The position numbers were made by a program, and so were the translations under genes. DNA of 22,717 nucleotides, taken from positions 1 to 22,717 of IMG/VR virus record IMGVR_UViG_3300018417_000075; one strand, given 5' to 3'. Source of the stretch: a virus. The notes under the pieces were generated by a model. That model was not told the origin of the DNA, did no database searches, and saw nothing but the letters and a program-made list of their open reading frames with translations. Shown piece by piece: positions 1 through 10,124 of this stretch. Each line of letters starts with the position of its first letter. The first letter of the stretch is position 1.

Positions 1-489
1 ACGGAAGTGTGGGCAATCTATTGTATTTATAAAATGCTTTGTTCCTGCTCTAGGTGAACCATATGTGTATAGTGCAGTAACCCTTGACCCAAGTCTACCA
101 GTCGCTATAGTCGCCATTGCCGCACCCAGAGAATGCCCAGTGACAAACAAGTTTGCTGTCACTGTTTTTGTTTTGACAATTGCCATAACACTGTCCCAAA
201 CTTTTTCAACTTCATCAAAGAATCCCTTATGTACATACCCAGAGACTTTACTCTTTTTTGGTAGTGCATTTAGGTCTGCTTTGATATCAGAGACTTCACT
301 TGGTTCTGTTCCTCTAAAGCATACAACCATTTCTTCTTTATTTGTGACAATATAACATTGTGCGCCATCAATAGAAATGAACTTTACAGTACCATATCCC
401 AGAGATTTGTATTTTGCAGTACCTTCTTTTTTACTCATATAAGCAGTATTAGCAAGTACAGCCATTCTATGGCAATTGTCTTTTAACAT
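1..489 (-). CDS. Class 3 lipase (alpha/beta hydrolase), 3' part outside window
   Basis: The reading frame is open from an ATG at 489 to the left edge (163 codons), so the C-terminus is missing. The protein shows the two hallmarks of class 3 (fungal-type) lipases: an oxyanion-type FRGT at about residues 59-62 and the nucleophile elbow GHSLGA at about residues 117-122, followed by the usual small-residue helix and a YGSPRAG strand-loop at about residues 142-148. The family hydrolyses ester bonds in acylglycerols or phospholipids. The remaining Asp and His of the triad would lie in or beyond the missing part. There is no signal peptide. A strong ribosome binding site (AAGGGG) overlaps the stop of the EF-hand gene upstream, 10 bases away, which indicates cotranscription. 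A role against host membrane lipids is inferred, not shown. Confidence 0.85.
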   Translation of the reverse strand, partial: MLKDNCHRMAVLANTAYMSKKEGTAKYKSLGYGTVKFISIDGAQCYIVTNKEEMVVCFRGTEPSEVSDIKADLNALPKKSKVSGYVHKGFFDEVEKVWDSVMAIVKTKTVTANLFVTGHSLGAAMATIATGRLGSRVTALYTYGSPRAGTKHFINTIDCPHFR

Positions 490-499
490 AAAATACCCC

Positions 500-835
500 T
501 TACTTCTTGGTTCCCATTGCTTCTTTAGCATAGAAGGCGGCAACGATTGCGGCAACAGATACGAAGTATGTTGGTGCCATATCCCCTAGAGTTTTGCTTG
601 CTTGCTCAAGACCTAGGAATGAAGAAAACACAACAGACGCTGGATAGAGCAACATACCAAACAAAGCAAACCATGCCATGTTACGTTGTGCGTCACGCAT
701 TGCATCTGCATCTTCCATTTCTTTTCTTTTGAACTCTAAGTGCATCTCCATTTCTTCTTTGGAAATGTGTCCGTCACCGTTTGCGTCTGCACCATCAAGT
801 GCATCTGAGTCAATTGTTTTTACGTCATTTGTCAT
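500..835 (-). CDS. EF-hand membrane protein, holin-like candidate
   Basis: This 111-residue protein has a canonical 12-residue EF-hand loop at residues 17-28 (D17, N19, D21, H23, S25, E28 at the ligand positions), then a highly charged helix (about 29-48), then two hydrophobic segments at about 50-71 and 84-103, ending in a short Lys-rich tail. The expected topology is a hairpin in the inner membrane with the calcium-binding domain on the cytoplasmic side or outside. Small size, two membrane helices and a location beside an exported-protein pair, a lipase and a divergent cell wall hydrolase make it a plausible holin, but no holin family signature is visible. The start is supported by AAGGA upstream. 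It lies 21 bases after the preceding gene and 10 bases before the lipase, so it is part of one operon. Confidence 0.8.
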   Translation of the reverse strand: MTNDVKTIDSDALDGADANGDGHISKEEMEMHLEFKRKEMEDADAMRDAQRNMAWFALFGMLLYPASVVFSSFLGLEQASKTLGDMAPTYFVSVAAIVAAFYAKEAMGTKK

Positions 836-856
836 TTTACTTTTCCTTTTTTTATT

Positions 857-2479
857 TTAGTTATCACTACTTTCATACTGTTCATCAACCATTTTGTCAT
901 GCAAAATCTGTTGCGCTAATCCATTGCGTAATGCTCTACGATTCTGTGGAATCTCAACTTCTTGAAACCACTGACCATCAGTATAGAATGATATCTCTTC
1001 AATCTTTTTGTTTTTGTATGAATCAAAATCAATATTGATACCCATAAGAGCAACAATCTCCGCTTGATTTTGACCAGCATCGGTCATTAAATCATCTAAC
1101 TTATTATCAATGGATTCTTGTATACTTTCTGCAACTAATTCTTCAGCATCTTTAACTGAGGTATCTTTGTCTGCTTCTATTAATGCATTTATTCTATCTT
1201 TTATTATTCGTGAAGATAATGTCTCTATCTTATCTTGTCCTATTCCAGAAAACAGTTCTACATCAGATTGCAATGCAGGGTCACTAAACATGTCGTTTAG
1301 ATTAGAACCCATCTGAGTTTCTAGTTCACTATTACCATTCGCCATTGTTTCTGGTGAATCTATAACTGAACCAAATACAGACCCACTATCCATACCATCT
1401 GTAGACTGTGATGAACTGCCATCATTCTGTTGTCCACCGCTACCGTTACTTGCACTAGCGTCTTGCACTTGCCCTGTTAGCGACATTGTTCCACCAGTGC
1501 CTTCAATAGAACTACTGAGTCCAGTTGCATCACCAACACCATTCGTCTGTGAGTTTCCAAGCACACCAATTGCTGACAGTCTGTTAATTGTATCTCTCGC
1601 AGAAGGTCCGTCTTCTTTACTTGGTTCTGAAGTTGCGGCTGACTGTTCAACAATCTTTTCATCAGTCAATGCAACACCAGTCGCCTCTTGTTCTGCTACT
1701 GCGTTTGCTTCTTGTGCAACTTCTACAGCAACACCAGCAACCGCCGCTGCCTGCTCTACGACTTGTTGCGCTTGCTCAACTACATCTACAACTTGTTCTT
1801 GAACACTACCATCATCACTTCCAGAAAAGTCTTCTACAACTTGTTGCACTTGTTCTACAACCACAGGTTCAATAAACGCAGTTAAGTCTGTCCCATCTGC
1901 GTTGTCATTGCCGTCATTACTTGGCGTGCCATCATCAACAGCACTTGCAAGTTGCTCTGCCAGTCTCTCTTCATTAAGTAACACTGCATATGCTTGTGCA
2001 TATCCGGGACATGATTGGTCATACAACGGATTGGTTGTGCATAGCATTTGAAAATACGCTTGCTGATAACCTGGACACGACATGTCATTTAATGGATTTG
2101 AACAGTCAAGTTTAACTGCGCCCACCATATCGAAATAATTCACCATAGTCGCATTCGCATAGTTTGGATTCCACATTGACCATTGCGAACAATTCGAAGC
2201 GCCGTTGGCACCATACACAATAATGTAACCGCCCTGCCCAGTATCCATAGGAAAGCAGAAACTATCATTTGTAGTATCCCCGTCCTGGTAAAGTCCATCT
2301 GACGGGAAATACTGCCAATCTGTTAATATGTAATCTGGATTCGACTGTAAAATTGAATCTTTATAAAAGTCTATATCACTATTAAATGTGTAGTCGTTCC
2401 ATGCGGCGAATGCTTTGCTAGAGGAGAAGCAAAAGCAAAGCACCAGCACCCAAACCAAATAAGAAATCTTTGTTGACAT
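857..2479 (-). CDS. Exported protein with CPGY repeats, function unknown
   Basis: 540 residues. The N-terminus is a classic Sec signal peptide: Lys4, a hydrophobic core at about residues 7-18, and an AFA-A cleavage site near residue 25. The mature N-terminal region (about 26-130) is aromatic-rich and is followed by two copies of a Cys-bearing unit (NPLxDxSCPGYxxAY, about residues 128-165). The centre (about 180-400) is low-complexity: Glu/Val/Ala/Gln-rich helix, then Gly/Ser-rich. The C-terminal 120 residues look like a folded helical domain ending in a basic ALRNGLAQQ segment. No enzyme motif or lipobox was recognised. A good ribosome binding site (GAAGGA) precedes the ATG at 2479, although this start lies inside the upstream gene, overlapping it by 62 bases. 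Similar CPGY-repeat proteins occur in marine T4-like phages (from memory); function unknown. Confidence 0.85.
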   Translation of the reverse strand: MSTKISYLVWVLVLCFCFSSSKAFAAWNDYTFNSDIDFYKDSILQSNPDYILTDWQYFPSDGLYQDGDTTNDSFCFPMDTGQGGYIIVYGANGASNCSQWSMWNPNYANATMVNYFDMVGAVKLDCSNPLNDMSCPGYQQAYFQMLCTTNPLYDQSCPGYAQAYAVLLNEERLAEQLASAVDDGTPSNDGNDNADGTDLTAFIEPVVVEQVQQVVEDFSGSDDGSVQEQVVDVVEQAQQVVEQAAAVAGVAVEVAQEANAVAEQEATGVALTDEKIVEQSAATSEPSKEDGPSARDTINRLSAIGVLGNSQTNGVGDATGLSSSIEGTGGTMSLTGQVQDASASNGSGGQQNDGSSSQSTDGMDSGSVFGSVIDSPETMANGNSELETQMGSNLNDMFSDPALQSDVELFSGIGQDKIETLSSRIIKDRINALIEADKDTSVKDAEELVAESIQESIDNKLDDLMTDAGQNQAEIVALMGINIDFDSYKNKKIEEISFYTDGQWFQEVEIPQNRRALRNGLAQQILHDKMVDEQYESSDN

Positions 2480-3410
2480 TTAGTGGTTCCTTCTTGGTAA
2501 CATTATTAGGGTTTTTTCCGTCTTTAATCGCAGACTGAATATCTGCAATGTACTCTTGTCTTGCTCTGTATTGTTCAGCGTCTGGACGAAGTTCGGGCAT
2601 TAGTTCCCAAGCCGCTTTTGCCTCAACCCCAATGTCACCCATGAATGGGCAAGGTGTTCCAGCCATTTCCATTGCTGAAAATACACGCTCGTCTTGACAC
2701 ATGACTGATACTGCGGCAACTTTCATGCCCATATCATACAGCGTCTTTGACAACTTTAATCTTTCACAATTCATATCCCTAACAGTACTACCACCAGCAA
2801 TACCTAGAATCTGAGTTTGAACAGCACCAGATATACCTGTAGTACACAAGTCAATATTATTTGCGCTTATGTTTGGGGCAATAGCACTAGGTGGAGGTGA
2901 CTTAATCTCTTGCTCAATCTTTGAGGTGTTATTGTTATTGTTATTATTTTGATTTGTGTTATTGCTAGTACTATTCACCGTAGTATCATTAGTGTTACTA
3001 TTAGTGTTAGTATTTGTATTATTAGATGTTATATCTGAATTATTGGTATTTGTGTTATTACTTGTGCTATTAATAGTCGCATTTGAAGTATCATTTGAGG
3101 TATTAATATTTGTATTTGTATTGTTACTTGTAACATTACTTGTATTATTATTTGTGTTTGTTGAAGTACTGGTATTAACATTGGTGTTGTTATTAGTATT
3201 TGTTGCAGTACTAGTATTCACATTAGTGTTAGTATTAGTATTCGTGTTTACATTTGTCGAGGTATTGACATTTGTATTCGTATTGTCTGTTGTGCTATCC
3301 ACAGTTGTTGTGTTAGTGTTGACATTGTTAGTGTTGATATCTTCTGCCGCAGTTATATTAGCAGACATCAAAGACATTACGAAAATTGCCGACATTGTTA
3401 TTCTGTTCAT
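2418..3410 (-). CDS. Exported Asn/Thr-repeat protein with C-terminal anchor
   Basis: 330 residues. A signal peptide (about residues 1-22, ITA-A cleavage) leads into a 139-residue tract made almost only of Asn, Thr, Ser and some Val (about 25-163), containing near-perfect 14-residue tandem copies around residues 64-91. After a Pro-rich hinge (171-180) comes a compact four-Cys domain (about 185-300: Cys at CTTG, DMNCE, VMCQD and TPCPF) and finally a C-terminal hydrophobic run of Gly/Ala/Leu ending in six leucines. The architecture is that of an envelope protein spanning or reaching through the periplasm, with a flexible glycan-like spacer. It resembles a spanin-like layout only loosely; no family was recognised. 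An AAGG site 7 bases before the ATG supports the start. It heads the minus-strand block that continues to the left edge. Confidence 0.85.
   Translation of the reverse strand: MNRITMSAIFVMSLMSANITAAEDINTNNVNTNTTTVDSTTDNTNTNVNTSTNVNTNTNTNTNVNTSTATNTNNNTNVNTSTSTNTNNNTSNVTSNNTNTNINTSNDTSNATINSTSNNTNTNNSDITSNNTNTNTNSNTNDTTVNSTSNNTNQNNNNNNNTSKIEQEIKSPPPSAIAPNISANNIDLCTTGISGAVQTQILGIAGGSTVRDMNCERLKLSKTLYDMGMKVAAVSVMCQDERVFSAMEMAGTPCPFMGDIGVEAKAAWELMPELRPDAEQYRARQEYIADIQSAIKDGKNPNNVTKKEPLNVNKDFLFGLGAGALLLLLL
2922..3338 (-). repeat. Low-complexity Asn/Thr codon repeat tract
   Basis: About 417 bases of AAT/AAC and ACT/ACA codons, seen on the plus strand as TTAGTGTTAGTATT-like runs. It encodes residues 25-163 of the exported protein above. 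A 42-base unit (NVNTSTxTNTNNNT) is present twice in direct succession, with degenerate copies on both sides. The synonymous codons are varied, so it is not a simple microsatellite. Confidence 0.9.
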
Positions 3411-3457
3411 CTGAACACCTTCTATTTGGTTACTGTTGGGTCACCTCCACTCATACA

Positions 3458-3465
3458 TTTTTATA
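3458..3465 (-). promoter_or_regulatory. Possible late-type promoter of the envelope block
   Basis: On the minus strand the sequence reads TATAAAAA, about 48 bases before the ATG at 3410. It differs by one base from the TATAAATA late element seen elsewhere in the window. No good -35 box is visible. Weak candidate. Confidence 0.3.
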
Positions 3466-3515
3466 GTATCCCTCTTCTTTTTTAGGGTTTTTTAACTAAA
3501 TAATCATAATACCAC

Positions 3516-3544
3516 TTGACAGGATGCAAAAACCATGCTATTAT
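3516..3544 (+). promoter_or_regulatory. Sigma70-like promoter for cell wall hydrolase
   Basis: Perfect -35 TTGACA (3516-3521), a 17-base spacer and -10 TATTAT (3539-3544). Expected transcription start is near 3551, 29 bases before the GTG at 3580. An upstream in-frame ATG at 3535 lies between the two boxes and so cannot be on this transcript, which decides the start of the gene. Confidence 0.75.
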
Positions 3545-3579
3545 ACACATGTACTAAAAAAAGAACGAAAGGTTTTATC

Positions 3580-4119
3580 GTGAAAAGTGCAATTACTTCA
3601 GTACTATTTATAAGTTTGGCTGCCTTTGTCGTCAATTCTTTTTCTTCTAGTCCATCATCAGCGTCAGAAGTTCAACCAGCCCCAATAAATGATATCATTT
3701 TTGACTTGACAGAAGTAGGGTGTCTTGCAAAGAACATCTACTATGAGGCGGGAGTTGAAGAGACTGCTGGTAGAGTTGCAGTAGCAAATGTTACAATCAA
3801 CCGTGTGCTTGATAGTAAATTTCCTGCTACAATTTGTGATGTAGTACATCAAGGAGAAAAGAACAAAGACGGCGGTATGAAACGCAATCGTTGCCAGTTC
3901 AGTTGGTACTGTGATGGGAAAAAAGACACACCATACGAAGGCGAGAACTGGCAAATGTCTCAAGCCCTAGCATGGGAAATCTATGAACTCTATACAGAGA
4001 ATAAACTCCTTGACATTACTGATGGAGCCCTGTATTATCATGCAACATACGTCACGCCTTATTGGGCAAAGTCTATGAAACGTACTACTAAAATTGGTAC
4101 ACATATTTTTTATCGTTAA
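3580..4119 (+). CDS. SleB/CwlJ-type cell wall hydrolase (probable endolysin)
   Basis: With the GTG start at 3580 the protein has 179 residues; AAGG 8 bases upstream and the promoter at 3516-3544 favour this over the in-frame ATG at 3535. A signal peptide or signal anchor covers about residues 1-27 (Lys2, hydrophobic core 4-19, Ser-rich end). The rest is a Hydrolase_2 (SleB) domain: the family's NIYYEAG motif with the presumed catalytic Glu at about residue 56, the NVTINRV helix, the CQFSWYCDG motif and the C-terminal HATYVTPYW motif. These enzymes cleave peptidoglycan glycan strands. The signal sequence suggests holin-independent export, perhaps as a signal-arrest-release type endolysin; that is inference. 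It is transcribed divergently from the exported-protein block and followed 9 bases later by thyX. Confidence 0.88.
   Translation: MKSAITSVLFISLAAFVVNSFSSSPSSASEVQPAPINDIIFDLTEVGCLAKNIYYEAGVEETAGRVAVANVTINRVLDSKFPATICDVVHQGEKNKDGGMKRNRCQFSWYCDGKKDTPYEGENWQMSQALAWEIYELYTENKLLDITDGALYYHATYVTPYWAKSMKRTTKIGTHIFYR
4010..4038 (+). promoter_or_regulatory. Internal sigma70-like promoter ahead of thyX
   Basis: TTGACA (4010-4015), exactly 17 bases, TATTAT (4033-4038). It lies inside the 3' end of the hydrolase gene, about 90 bases before thyX, and has the same boxes and spacing as the promoter at 3516. It would transcribe thyX, gp33, gp59 and gp32 without the hydrolase. Confidence 0.6.
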
Positions 4120-6877: not shown

Positions 6878-9800
6878 TTATCCGTATATCAACGCCGCTT
6901 CTTCTGGCGACAAGTGTTGCGTAGATGAAGATGAAGTTGTTGTGTTGTTTGATGAAGATGCTACAGTAGAACTGTTTGCATTCATAATAATAGGGTTACC
7001 AGAACCAGTGCCTTGCTGTTGTTCTGCGAGTAGTTCTTCATTAGTTGTAGCAATATCTGCTAATGCCGCACCAGAACCGCCAGCACCTGGAACCATTTCA
7101 GCCGCAGGTACACCACTTGCAAGATACTGAGAGTATAGTTCTCTTCTGTCCCCTAGTCCAACACTACCACCATTAACTGCTCTGGATACTGCATCAATGT
7201 CGCCACCCTCAATACCTCTACCAGACACACGGTCTTGATAGTATGCGACTGCGACTTTTGCACCAATCTCTGGGTCATTCACAAGTTCTGGATTTGCAAC
7301 TAGGTCAACACCAATCATGTCTCCGTACTTTTTGTAGTTTGCTTTACCTGTTAATTGGAAAGCGCCCCTACCTCTGTACTTGAATCCATCACCTTCTGTG
7401 TCGTTGCCCATACGTCCACCATAGATAACATCACCAACTGCACTCTGTCCTTGAGATACTAGTCCTTCTGCTTCTTGTTGTGAATTGAAACGTACTTTGT
7501 TTCCGTATGAGTTACCTGCACCATATAGTTCAAATAATCTTTTACCTGAGTAGTTAAAGTTCTCTTCAGTTCTTGTGAATCCAGCAGATTCGTGGTCTGC
7601 TTGCGCCATGATTGCCGCACGTTCTTGTGGGCTAGTAATACCTGAAGCATCCATTTGAGCAACTAGTGCATTTCTACGAGTTCCAGCATCACCTGTAGCA
7701 ACTGCCATTTCAGCATGACTACCTGTTGAACGCATTAGTCCTGCGCCTCTATCTAGTGGCGCAGGCTCTGGACCATCACCCCACCAAGAATCCCACCAAC
7801 CAGAAACACCTTCAACCATGTCACCGATGGCACCACTAATCTCATCACCAACTTCTTGAATTGCTTCGCCTGCTTTGTCAAGTTGGTCACCGACAAATTC
7901 GACTTCATCTTCAAGACCCATTGCCTGGATGCCTGCTTCAACAGCATCAGAAACTGCTTCTTGTCCTGCTTCAACAAACTCACCAGCACGTTCAATTGCT
8001 GGAGCAATTGCGTCCCCAACAACTTCACCAGCGACAGAAAGACCGTCACTGACGGATTCTGCAAGTGCCGCCGCTTTACCTTCGACATACGCCACAGAGT
8101 CAGAAACAGCCTGAGAGATTCCGAATGCTTCATCTAATCCTGAAATCTTATCAGCAAACCAACCCTTTGCACTCTCGAATGCACCTTTCATTACACCAAA
8201 CGCCGCGGCACCTGCATCGGATAGACTATTCCAAGTATCCATAACAGTACTGCTAATAGTCTGCCAATATGATGGGTCTACTTTTGCTTGTAGTGCGGCA
8301 GCCGCATCTTCAAATGCACCATTTGTCGCATCATACTGGGTTTCTAATTGTTCTAGTGTTGCGTACATACTGCCAGAAACTGTGAGACCCTGGTCTTCCA
8401 TACGTTGAATAGTTGCGTTAAGGTCGTTATACTGTCTACCCTTCTCTAGTCGAGTCTGGTTCAGTCTTTCAACTTCTGCCGCTTCTGCCGCATGTTGGTC
8501 GTTCAACAACTGTTGTGATTGAATCACAGCCGCCTGCTGGTCGTACTCTGCCTTACTAATTGCACCACTATCATACAATTGTTGAATTGTAGTCATTGAT
8601 GCAGAAAGTGCGTCTTTTGATGCCGCAATTTTTGCTTGTGATTCTGTAAGTACTGCTTGATATGATGGGGCAATTTGGTCACCGATGAATCCACCAACCA
8701 TATTACCTAGTGCCATACCGAGACCAGCACCCAAAGGACCACCAACGAAAGCACCGACTGTTCCGAGTAGTGCGCCACCGATGGCACCACCCATGTCTTT
8801 ACCTTCAATCTCAGTTGTGATATCATTATCAAGTGCGGCGGCAGCCATGTCATAAACATCTTTTGCAATCATACCACCACCGACTGCAACTGCCGCAATC
8901 GGACCAGCGGCACCTGCTAGTCTGCTAATAACACCTTTCAAACCACCTGAACCGAGTAGAGAACCTGTTAGTCCACCGATTGCTCCTCCAAGTCCACCAG
9001 CGCCAGCGCCCAATAGACTAGTCAGACCGCTTAGTAGACCACCACCTTCTTCTTCTGTGTCTTTCTTGCCACCACCATCAATTTTAATGCCTTCGATAGC
9101 ATCAATCATTTTTTCTTGTTGGCGGACACCTTCTCTGCGATTTTCTTCATCATTTGAATTTGATAATGCATCAACTTTAAATGCTCTATCAATACCAATA
9201 CGAATCTTTTCAAGTTCTTCTGCCTGAAGTTCATTCCAGACTACTAGTTCAGATAGCCCACCCATACTACCAGAATCTGAACCAGACCCCATAGTTGGAC
9301 TAGACTTTGCACTAAGGACTTCTGCTTCTGCTTTAGAATTTTTACTATTTTGTTTTGCCGCGGCAAGAGATTCTAGGCGCTCAAGTGACTCTTCAGCCAT
9401 TGCTTTTTTTCTAGCCTGCTTCTCTTCTTTCATTTGCTTGCGTTTATCTAACACATATTTTGTCGCAAACATAACGGCAGGACTATTGCCTGCAAGACCA
9501 CCAACAACAGAAGTAATATCTACTGCGTTTTGTGATATAGTTTCTTGAATTTTCCCTAATATCTTATTCTGAGTTTTACTGTTTATCTGCTTCTTTGCAA
9601 CATCCGCCGCAGATAATAGAATCTGTCTATCTTTTTCTGCAATATCAGTTTGGGCTTTAAGAACATTTTCGATGTCCTTAATACCCTGCAAACTTTCTTT
9701 TAGTTGACTTGCACTTAACTTACCAGAAGCACTGATGGTGGATTTAAGAGCATCCATGTACTGCTGGTTTTCAGTACCGACCTGTTTCCCAAGACTATCC

Positions 9801-9916
9801 ATACGAGAAAGCATATCTTTAGTGCGCTTCTCGGACTCTGATGCGAATTGTTTAAAGTTATCGTCTCTGAGTTTATTGATTGATGCACTCAAAGCGTCAT
9901 TGGAATTCATAGCCAT
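6878..9916 (-). CDS. Tail tape-measure protein with GH19 muralytic domain
   Basis: 1012 residues. Order: helical, coiled-coil N-terminal part (about 10-280, Lys/Glu-rich around 155-200); a Gly/Ala-rich hydrophobic stretch with several potential membrane helices (about 293-412); a second long helical part (about 420-705); a GH19 glycoside hydrolase domain (about 745-935); and an Asn/Ser/Thr-rich tail. The GH19 domain shows HESAGF with the likely catalytic acid E776, a second Glu in RTEEN (784/785), and the YGGRMGN...GFKYRGRGAFQLTG signature (about 832-856) typical of phage GH19 lysozymes. The helical body and its place right after two chaperone-like ORFs argue for a tape measure (gp29 role), with the enzyme opening peptidoglycan during DNA entry. 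GAGAG precedes the ATG. Confidence 0.85.
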   Translation of the reverse strand: MAMNSNDALSASINKLRDDNFKQFASESEKRTKDMLSRMDSLGKQVGTENQQYMDALKSTISASGKLSASQLKESLQGIKDIENVLKAQTDIAEKDRQILLSAADVAKKQINSKTQNKILGKIQETISQNAVDITSVVGGLAGNSPAVMFATKYVLDKRKQMKEEKQARKKAMAEESLERLESLAAAKQNSKNSKAEAEVLSAKSSPTMGSGSDSGSMGGLSELVVWNELQAEELEKIRIGIDRAFKVDALSNSNDEENRREGVRQQEKMIDAIEGIKIDGGGKKDTEEEGGGLLSGLTSLLGAGAGGLGGAIGGLTGSLLGSGGLKGVISRLAGAAGPIAAVAVGGGMIAKDVYDMAAAALDNDITTEIEGKDMGGAIGGALLGTVGAFVGGPLGAGLGMALGNMVGGFIGDQIAPSYQAVLTESQAKIAASKDALSASMTTIQQLYDSGAISKAEYDQQAAVIQSQQLLNDQHAAEAAEVERLNQTRLEKGRQYNDLNATIQRMEDQGLTVSGSMYATLEQLETQYDATNGAFEDAAAALQAKVDPSYWQTISSTVMDTWNSLSDAGAAAFGVMKGAFESAKGWFADKISGLDEAFGISQAVSDSVAYVEGKAAALAESVSDGLSVAGEVVGDAIAPAIERAGEFVEAGQEAVSDAVEAGIQAMGLEDEVEFVGDQLDKAGEAIQEVGDEISGAIGDMVEGVSGWWDSWWGDGPEPAPLDRGAGLMRSTGSHAEMAVATGDAGTRRNALVAQMDASGITSPQERAAIMAQADHESAGFTRTEENFNYSGKRLFELYGAGNSYGNKVRFNSQQEAEGLVSQGQSAVGDVIYGGRMGNDTEGDGFKYRGRGAFQLTGKANYKKYGDMIGVDLVANPELVNDPEIGAKVAVAYYQDRVSGRGIEGGDIDAVSRAVNGGSVGLGDRRELYSQYLASGVPAAEMVPGAGGSGAALADIATTNEELLAEQQQGTGSGNPIIMNANSSTVASSSNNTTTSSSSTQHLSPEEAALIYG

Positions 9917-9935
9917 TTGTAGTTCTCTCTATTTG

Positions 9936-10124
9936 TTATTTTCTTTTTGCATTCCGCTCTCGAATTCTATCATTTTGTTCTTGTACATAATTTACCAGCA
10001 TACCCACATACACTTCTCTTTCCCAAGGCATCATATTTTCAATTTCAGTTAGAGAGTATTTGTGATGCTGAACCATAGCAAAATTCGTTTCGTATAAGTT
10101 TTTCAACTTATTATGGTCCAGCAT
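9936..10124 (-). CDS. Small tail-assembly ORF, likely -1 frameshift extension of gp26
   Basis: 62 codons from an ATG that overlaps the gp26 stop as TAATG. The product is helical and charged, with no known motif; it has the position of T4 gp51 (hub assembly) but is far shorter than gp51 (249 residues). The only purine-rich site (GGAAGG) lies about 25 bases upstream of the ATG, too far for normal initiation, so it is translated either by coupling to the gp26 stop or as the C-terminal extension of gp26 through the slippery site at 10130-10136. It stands directly before the tape-measure gene, as lambda gpT stands before gpH. Confidence 0.75.
   Translation of the reverse strand: MLDHNKLKNLYETNFAMVQHHKYSLTEIENMMPWEREVYVGMLVNYVQEQNDRIRERNAKRK
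10094..10111 (-). other. GNRA-capped hairpin 3' of the slippery site
   Basis: On the mRNA strand ATAAGTT-GAAA-AACTTAT forms a 7-bp stem with a GAAA tetraloop, starting 18 bases after the slippery heptamer. It could act as a weak frameshift stimulator, though the spacer is longer than the usual 5-9 bases and the stem is AT-rich. Confidence 0.35.

Follow-up and report, generated by a model that had tools for sequence, protein, structure and literature searches.

Mosaic envelope-directed genes of marine phages, with an EF-hand-type membrane protein, as a possible lysis island

The viral record IMGVR_UViG_3300018417_000075 was analysed over its whole length of 22,717 bases (hereafter the window), at which the contig ends. 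It opens with a block of envelope-directed genes: on the minus strand two exported proteins, NT330 and big540, a small membrane protein with an EF-hand-type calcium loop (the EF protein) and a class 3 lipase, and on the plus strand a SleB-type cell wall hydrolase. We propose that this block belongs to a mosaic late lysis or exit island of marine phages in which the EF protein binds calcium and serves as a holin or as a regulator of one, and we put the probability of this proposal at roughly one half. Of its parts, that the block belongs to a lysis island is more likely than that the EF protein is a holin, and gating by calcium is the least secure; we infer holin function, calcium gating and attack on the outer membrane.

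The genes for NT330, big540, the EF protein and the lipase form one minus-strand unit, from which SleB diverges. The big540 stop codon lies 21 nucleotides from the ATG of the EF gene, whose own stop lies 10 nucleotides from the lipase ATG. An earlier note on this DNA, made from its letters alone, had assigned five adjacent genes to the host envelope, and all five genes are present as described, with three corrections that are given below.

The EF protein

The EF protein (111 amino acids; 500..835, minus strand), a putative holin or holin regulator, consists of a calcium-type loop, a long amphipathic helix that takes in the first transmembrane helix (TM1), a short turn and a second transmembrane helix (TM2). 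The loop occupies residues 17–28 (DANGDGHISKEE; 752..787, minus strand). By the 12-residue pattern of ligands at positions 1, 3, 5 and 12 plus Gly6 it is canonical in 83 of 84 family sequences, with positions 1, 3, 5, 6, 8 and 12 conserved (Asp17 84/84, Asn19 81/84, Asp21 82/84, Gly22 84/84, Glu28 83/84). Pfam EF-hand models match the window protein, but below their cut-off, and a profile of the family retrieves EF-hand proteins and calmodulins from the PDB (E 4.5e-8). Because of this profile match and the canonical loop in nearly all relatives, the loop is not a chance resemblance. Homologues in phage isolates, 42–61% identical, retain it as well; their local matches start at query residue 24, past most of the loop, and the loop was therefore not selected by the search.

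An AlphaFold2 model (mean predicted local distance difference test score 78.4, predicted template modelling score 0.43) places helices at residues 26–73, 77–85 and 87–108. The first of these runs on continuously after the loop and includes TM1; the last is TM2. The membrane helices are marginal by hydropathy in the window protein (means 1.82 and 1.53), and among 104 relatives two hydrophobic segments are found in 75, one in 28 and none in 1. The earlier description of a two-helix membrane protein with an EF-hand loop is thus upheld, and the length and the modelled helices would fit a holin. The protein does not have the helix-loop-helix, usually paired, of EF-hands: there is one loop per chain, and the model, whose confidence over residues 1–16 is low to moderate, has no entering helix. 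Lys and Arg are scarce between the two helices and present at both termini, a charge pattern that suggests that both ends, loop included, are cytoplasmic.

At least 600 stretches in IMG/VR were confirmed to contain EF relatives. In a phage collection the family occurs in 9 of 50,697 records, including SAR11 phage HTVC008M, the OM43 Melnitz phages and roseophages CRP-207, CRP-345 and CRP-810, and in a genome collection in two contigs. A search of the EF model against BFVD returned one viral protein (E 1.5e-6, 52% identity), which is probably a member of the same family.

Linkage of the EF gene to lysis genes

The EF gene is found in several contexts. In one, a GH19 endolysin is followed by overlapping Rz-like and Rz1-like spanins, the small membrane protein c8 and EF, with the families confirmed. 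In another the lipase takes part, as Rz-Rz1-lipase-EF in loci L027 and L028 and as lysozyme-lipase-...-Rz-Rz1-EF in L033. T4-like relatives have the order gp26-like, gp51-like, EF, tape measure; other loci have NT330-big-(coiled coil)-EF; and some are without an evident lysis gene close by. Among 80 EF loci (here and below, best-80 lists consist of closest relatives that are not independent of each other), the neighbours include Rz-like and Rz1-like spanins, GH19 endolysin, phage lysozyme and a CHAP lipoprotein. Isolates provide two further cases: in CRP-345 EF is followed by a spanin-annotated gene and then an endolysin, and in CRP-810 by a holin-annotated gene and then GH108.

Distances were compared with uniform placement on 35 EF contigs of at least 25 kb, not all of them independent. 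An Rz-like spanin is present in 23 of the 35, a count that must be read with the caveat, unfavourable to our proposal, that the phrog_739 model also matches 9 of 14 control genomes. On these 23 contigs EF lies within 6 kb of the spanin in 18 (6.14 expected) and within 1.5 kb in 8 (1.57 expected).

The lipase

The lipase gene (1..489, minus strand) is of class 3 (Rhizomucor type). It matches PF01764 (E 4.2e-16; 59.5 bits against a curated cut-off of 22) and phrog_21992 (E 2.3e-16) and contains the FRGT and GHSLG motifs from which it had first been recognised. One correction applies: because the gene runs off the contig end, only the Ser of the catalytic triad is visible, and the Asp and His are not. 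Among 90 full-length relatives, Ser122, Asp171 and His230 (numbering of the L002 lipase) are invariant in all 90 and the N-terminus is strongly hydrophobic in one; for these reasons the lipase is leaderless and presumably an active enzyme, as judged from sequence.

A scan with the single protein gave five lipase loci, and a scan with an alignment then supplied the matches listed. At the best 80 loci among those matches, c8 lies within four genes of the lipase in 64, a second small membrane protein, c77, in 43, EF in 17 and an inner-membrane spanin (i-spanin) in 13. The EF gene occurs on 18 of 33 long lipase contigs, and the two genes are closer than expected: within 2 kb on 8 of the 18 (1.52 expected) and within 12 kb on 16 (7.62 expected).

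The earlier note had argued that many class 3 lipases are helped by calcium, which would account for a calcium-sensing partner beside one. That argument is not borne out. The closest solved relatives of the window lipase are of the Rhizomucor/Thermomyces type, which are not known to need calcium, and a partnership resting on a calcium requirement of the lipase was dropped on this basis.

The island across relatives

Beyond the point at which the window's lipase is cut off, its closest relatives continue with c8, c77, a membrane-anchored coiled-coil protein and a CHAP-domain lipoprotein. Loci L002 and L180 repeat the whole order: SleB (on the opposite strand), NT330, big, EF, lipase, c8, c77, coiled coil and CHAP lipoprotein. 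In L182, L189 and L194 the same players are reordered as SleB, NT330, lipase, c8, c77, EF and coiled coil. NT330 occurs with EF or lipase at 41 loci (L095 being a duplicate of L002), and all three occur together at 9 distinct loci. The counts over the 260 loci searched, like those in the best-80 lipase and NT330 lists, rest on profiles built from the loci examined here; EF was found at 117 of the 260. The island is a shuffled set of envelope genes and not a fixed operon. The conserved co-occurrence in marine viral genomes that the earlier note had put forward as a check is therefore found: the full order recurs, the three genes meet at distinct loci, EF lies closer to lipase than chance on 18 contigs, and EF is found near spanins and endolysins, but the association is not obligate, as 23 of the 35 long EF contigs show no lipase.

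In L020 (3412-5963) and L033 (2633-5231), two tandem proteins (c78) with export-type N-termini and CxxCH haem-type motifs lie inside the lipase-c8...EF block.

The overlapping NT330-big pair

NT330 (2418..3410, minus strand) has an Asn/Thr-rich stalk, a four-cysteine domain and a C-terminal membrane anchor (hydrophobic residues 312–330), and matches phrog_20531, a family of unknown function (E 4.6e-15). The protein after it, big540 (857..2479, minus strand), has two copies of an NPLYDxxCPGY cysteine motif, a low-complexity middle and a conserved C-terminus with MVDEQY; at a threshold of E 0.001 it has no matching family in Pfam, PHROGs or NCBIfam. Both carry N-terminal hydrophobic segments of the export type, in line with the earlier prediction of two signal-peptide proteins, one of them anchored at its C-terminus. 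To this we add that the two genes overlap by 62 nucleotides (2418..2479, minus strand) in two reading frames, the same DNA encoding the C-terminal anchor of NT330 in one frame and the signal peptide of big540 in the other. The big540 start within NT330 is preceded by a good ribosome-binding sequence, GAAGGAACC, before its ATG.

Of 600 NT330 candidates listed in IMG/VR, at least 598 stretches were confirmed. The four-cysteine domain occurs in 11 of 50,697 phage records, and its four cysteines are invariant in 55 aligned rows. The NT330 model gave no fold match; like the EF model, it is of moderate confidence only. The big family was defined by position after NT330 and by C-terminal homology. 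For the comparison of overlaps, duplicate loci (L095, L061, L226, L244, L193) were removed beforehand, leaving 105 NT330-big pairs, window included. With gene starts set by the longest open reading frame, so that overlap lengths are upper bounds, the two genes overlap in 101 of the 105 pairs, by 56–90 nucleotides in 66. A C-terminal hydrophobic anchor is present in 64 NT330 proteins, 58 of them with an overlap in that range. Within six genes after the pair, a coiled-coil membrane protein, typically ending in NPLA, follows in 87 of 98 cases.

Short and long big proteins are clearly related at the C-terminus (hhalign probability 99, E 3.2e-18). Scanning 66 big proteins gave one Pfam match (E 0.0009) and one PHROG match, to a ‘lipoprotein’ family (E 0.00025), and PL(Y/N/S)DxxCxGY-like motifs were found in 32 of the 66, in up to 9 copies. 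The longer form of the repeat, NPLYDxxCPGYxxAY (big540 at 1982-2104, minus strand; L002:3658-5787; L074:2963-5056), varies in copy number, with two in the window, and is perhaps a length-variable disulfide rod. Neither big540 nor its L074 relative has a tblastn match in the 50,697 phage records, and the same is true of c8. In the pelagiphages Mosig, HTVC023P, HTVC202P, Baldr, HTVC115P and HTVC033P, the NT330-like gene precedes a comparable long exported gene and a small gene for a coiled-coil protein. Homology of these long proteins was not proven, and homology of the pelagipodovirus big proteins to big540 was considered and not established (hhalign probability 2.7, E 0.006).

As an overlapping pair of exported genes, NT330-big resembles the spanins. 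Membership among ordinary spanin pairs was nevertheless rejected, the lipobox being missing from both window proteins. The pair is widespread, and it matched no known function in Pfam, PHROGs or NCBIfam.

A proposed mechanism

In the mechanism that we propose, the EF protein would be an inner-membrane protein whose loop faces the cytoplasm, and would serve as a holin or regulate one. The helix that leaves the loop runs on into TM1 in the model, and calcium admitted by the first leak of the membrane could, by binding the loop, turn opening into an abrupt event. At that point the lipase, which has no leader, would gain access to membrane lipids in the manner of a cytosolic endolysin, and the exported NT330, big540 and coiled-coil proteins may work in the periplasm or at the outer membrane. 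The strongest version of this scheme would have a calcium-gated holin in use across marine phages, with the EF loop fused to TM1 and the first calcium leak producing all-or-none opening. The lipase that it releases would be a lysis effector dedicated to degrading lipids, and NT330, big and the coiled coil would form a lipoprotein-free device, unlike spanins, for rupture of the outer membrane. We regard this version as a long shot.

Weighing the alternatives

Several observations weigh against a lysis island with an EF holin. The EF protein matches no holin family in Pfam, PHROGs or NCBIfam, and Foldseek found no useful fold match for its model in the PDB (best E 4.0). A lysis gene lies within four genes of EF in just 23 of 80 loci, and within six in 43. 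In CRP-810 a separate annotated holin adjoins EF. In Melnitz EF lies about 35 kb away from the spanins. Scattering of the genes in relatives, which the earlier note had held would refute a link between them, is seen in part: the EF gene of T4-like relatives, HTVC008M and Melnitz stands alone between baseplate-hub and tape-measure genes. Viewed from the EF side, linkage to the lipase is weak, as 12 of the 35 long EF contigs have a lipase and it lies within 6 kb on 5 (2.76 expected, P 0.10).

NT330, big and the coiled coil could instead assemble into a complex at the surface or in the periplasm that excludes superinfection, masks receptors or mediates cell adhesion, with EF and lipase merely sharing an insertion hotspot. 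The long big proteins have a common C-terminus and differing N-termini, as expected of a target-binding part, and in HTVC202P and Baldr no endolysin is annotated within the up to 5 kb examined on either side. Endolysin and spanin genes nevertheless adjoin many loci (within four genes of NT330 at 80 loci, GH19 in 12, i-spanin in 8 and lysozyme in 4), and L002 and L180 both preserve the order NT330-big-(EF)-lipase. We consider a role outside lysis rather unlikely.

The holin of the island might also be c77, with EF as antiholin or timing sensor. This hydrophobic protein of about 51 amino acids adjoins EF in many relatives and is a rival for the holin role that tells against our assignment; the order lipase-c8-c77-EF recurs, and the Melnitz c77 (gp32) lies two genes away from the Rz/Rz1-like pair, with EF at another site. 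It was found, however, in only 51 of the 260 loci and shows a single strong hydrophobic segment on the hydropathy scale applied, which leaves c77 a doubtful candidate beside the EF protein.

For the lipase, lipid remodelling or nutrient scavenging during infection is conceivable, as an auxiliary metabolic gene and not a lysis gene. Cyanophages such as P-SSM2 have the lipase without an annotated lysis gene beside it, and the distance between lipase and spanin on lipase contigs is no shorter than chance predicts (within 2 kb on 2 of 14, 1.16 expected), a result that also counts against the lipase as part of a lysis island. On the other side stand the linkage to EF, the Rz-Rz1-lipase-EF arrangement, and the presence of lysis genes or EF within four genes in 19 of 36 lipase clusters; we hold a metabolic role to be possible but not probable.

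That EF is a tail or assembly factor, such as a membrane-associated hub or tape-measure chaperone, with its lysis neighbours a coincidence of late-gene packing, is quite unlikely: its position in T4-like relatives and isolates, flanked by gp26/gp51-like genes and the tape measure, and a tape-measure gene within four genes in 11 of 80 loci, speak for such a role and against a holin, but in other phages EF belongs to spanin/endolysin cassettes and has no tail gene as a neighbour, EF lies far closer to spanins than chance would place it, and the hub/tape-measure slot of the window itself (9917-10123, minus strand), which holds EF in other T4-like phages, has none although the phage is T4-like. 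The EF gene has therefore moved between sites.

Observations on named phages

In Melnitz (MZ577097), gp34 and gp35 (24173-24908; L262:5505-6240) are an unannotated Rz-like and Rz1-like spanin pair by the profiles built here (E 6.7e-47 and 2.7e-45); they overlap by 65 nucleotides, and the c77 homologue gp32 is nearby. The available sections of the published Melnitz account name no spanin (PMC9004378). Melnitz is said there to have no lysin-like gene besides gp67 (PMC9004378, in part); gp77 (L264:6215-6742) also matches SleB (E 6.7e-37).

In three Kyanoviridae, envelope genes lie slightly upstream of primase and ribonucleotide reductase genes: the lipase in P-SSM2 (L263:4923-5537), the spanin pair in Melnitz (L262:5001-6240) and the NT330 module in Mosig (L088:1250-4313), as though envelope genes were inserted at a common site. 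CRP-207 gp73 (L084:3292-3873) and CRP-810 gp51 (L087:7162-7584), both annotated as lysozymes, resemble membrane-anchored coiled-coil proteins ending in NPL. The former has no lysozyme match in Pfam, and the annotation of both is probably mistaken.

SleB and other elements of the window

The SleB-type hydrolase (3535..4119, plus strand) has an N-terminal hydrophobic segment and matches PF07486 (E 1.3e-24; 87.2 bits against a cut-off of 27) and the endolysin family phrog_938 (E 1.1e-21). The exported, divergent hydrolase seen earlier is thus confirmed, with the amendment that it may start at GTG 3580 rather than ATG 3535. Its divergent position adjoining NT330 recurs in L002, L100, L102 and L180. 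About 48 nucleotides upstream of NT330 lies a possible late-promoter-like sequence, CTATAAAAA (3458..3466, minus strand), with one mismatch to CTATAAATA, which we take to be the late consensus; the motif is weak, as the window has 15 matches at one mismatch or fewer against 8.3 expected. Scans of the window for sigma-70 promoters, terminators, tRNAs and Rfam families gave nothing decisive.

The window is a fragment of a marine T4-like myovirus. PHROG matches identify ThyX, a gp33-like late-transcription regulator, gp59 and gp32, and the tail, baseplate and head-completion genes are presumed from gene order and likeness to T4. Over the first 12 kb, the listed named phages match through gp32 only, at 72–73%. 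A 1012-residue tail protein in the tape-measure position (6878-9916, minus strand) has a C-terminal GH19 chitinase/lysozyme-type domain (PF00182, E 8.5e-9).

Significance and comparison with known systems

The lysis of streamlined ocean bacteria (SAR11, OM43, marine Rhodobacteraceae) by their phages is poorly known. The EF and NT330 families, which have no known function and are present in isolates of those phage groups and in hundreds of viral stretches, offer concrete genes to test, and a calcium-binding holin, if true, would be a new way of timing lysis in a calcium-rich medium. A literature search found no paper on an EF-hand holin or on the NT330-big pair.

For pelagimyophages, the Melnitz authors proposed the CsgGF curli pore as a possible pinholin, and a text search of the accessible parts of their paper did not find the word ‘holin’ itself (PMC9004378). 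The proposal concerns the same group of phages; Melnitz also has an EF homologue and the unannotated gp34/gp35 pair, which the accessible parts of that account leave unused.

Like NT330-big, Rz/Rz1 spanins are encoded by two exported, partly overlapping genes in late clusters, with an overlap of 70 bp in T5 as given in excerpts of PMC6139136, and the 56–90-nucleotide overlap of most NT330-big pairs is comparable, as is the membrane coiled-coil protein that comes after them. Unlike Rz/Rz1, the pair is without a lipobox (NT330 1/119, big 8/109, against 41/48 for the outer-membrane spanin c4), NT330 is anchored at its C-terminus, and big has about 225–965 amino acids. Some loci (L062, L160 and L254) carry true Rz/Rz1 besides NT330-big.

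The lipase is of the same class 3 family as PSSM2_200 of P-SSM2 (phrog_21992), which is about 32% identical to the L002 lipase and has no recognised EF or c8 neighbour. Class II holins have two transmembrane helices with both ends in the cytoplasm. The EF protein is like them in its size of about 110 amino acids, its two predicted membrane helices and, at many loci, its place in a lysis cassette, and unlike them in its conserved calcium-type loop and in matching no holin family by sequence. With EF-hand and DxDxDG loops (PF13202, PF00036; calmodulin) it shares the conserved loop positions and the PDB profile match, and it differs from EF-hand proteins in having a single loop with no entering helix in the model and an exiting helix that runs straight into TM1.

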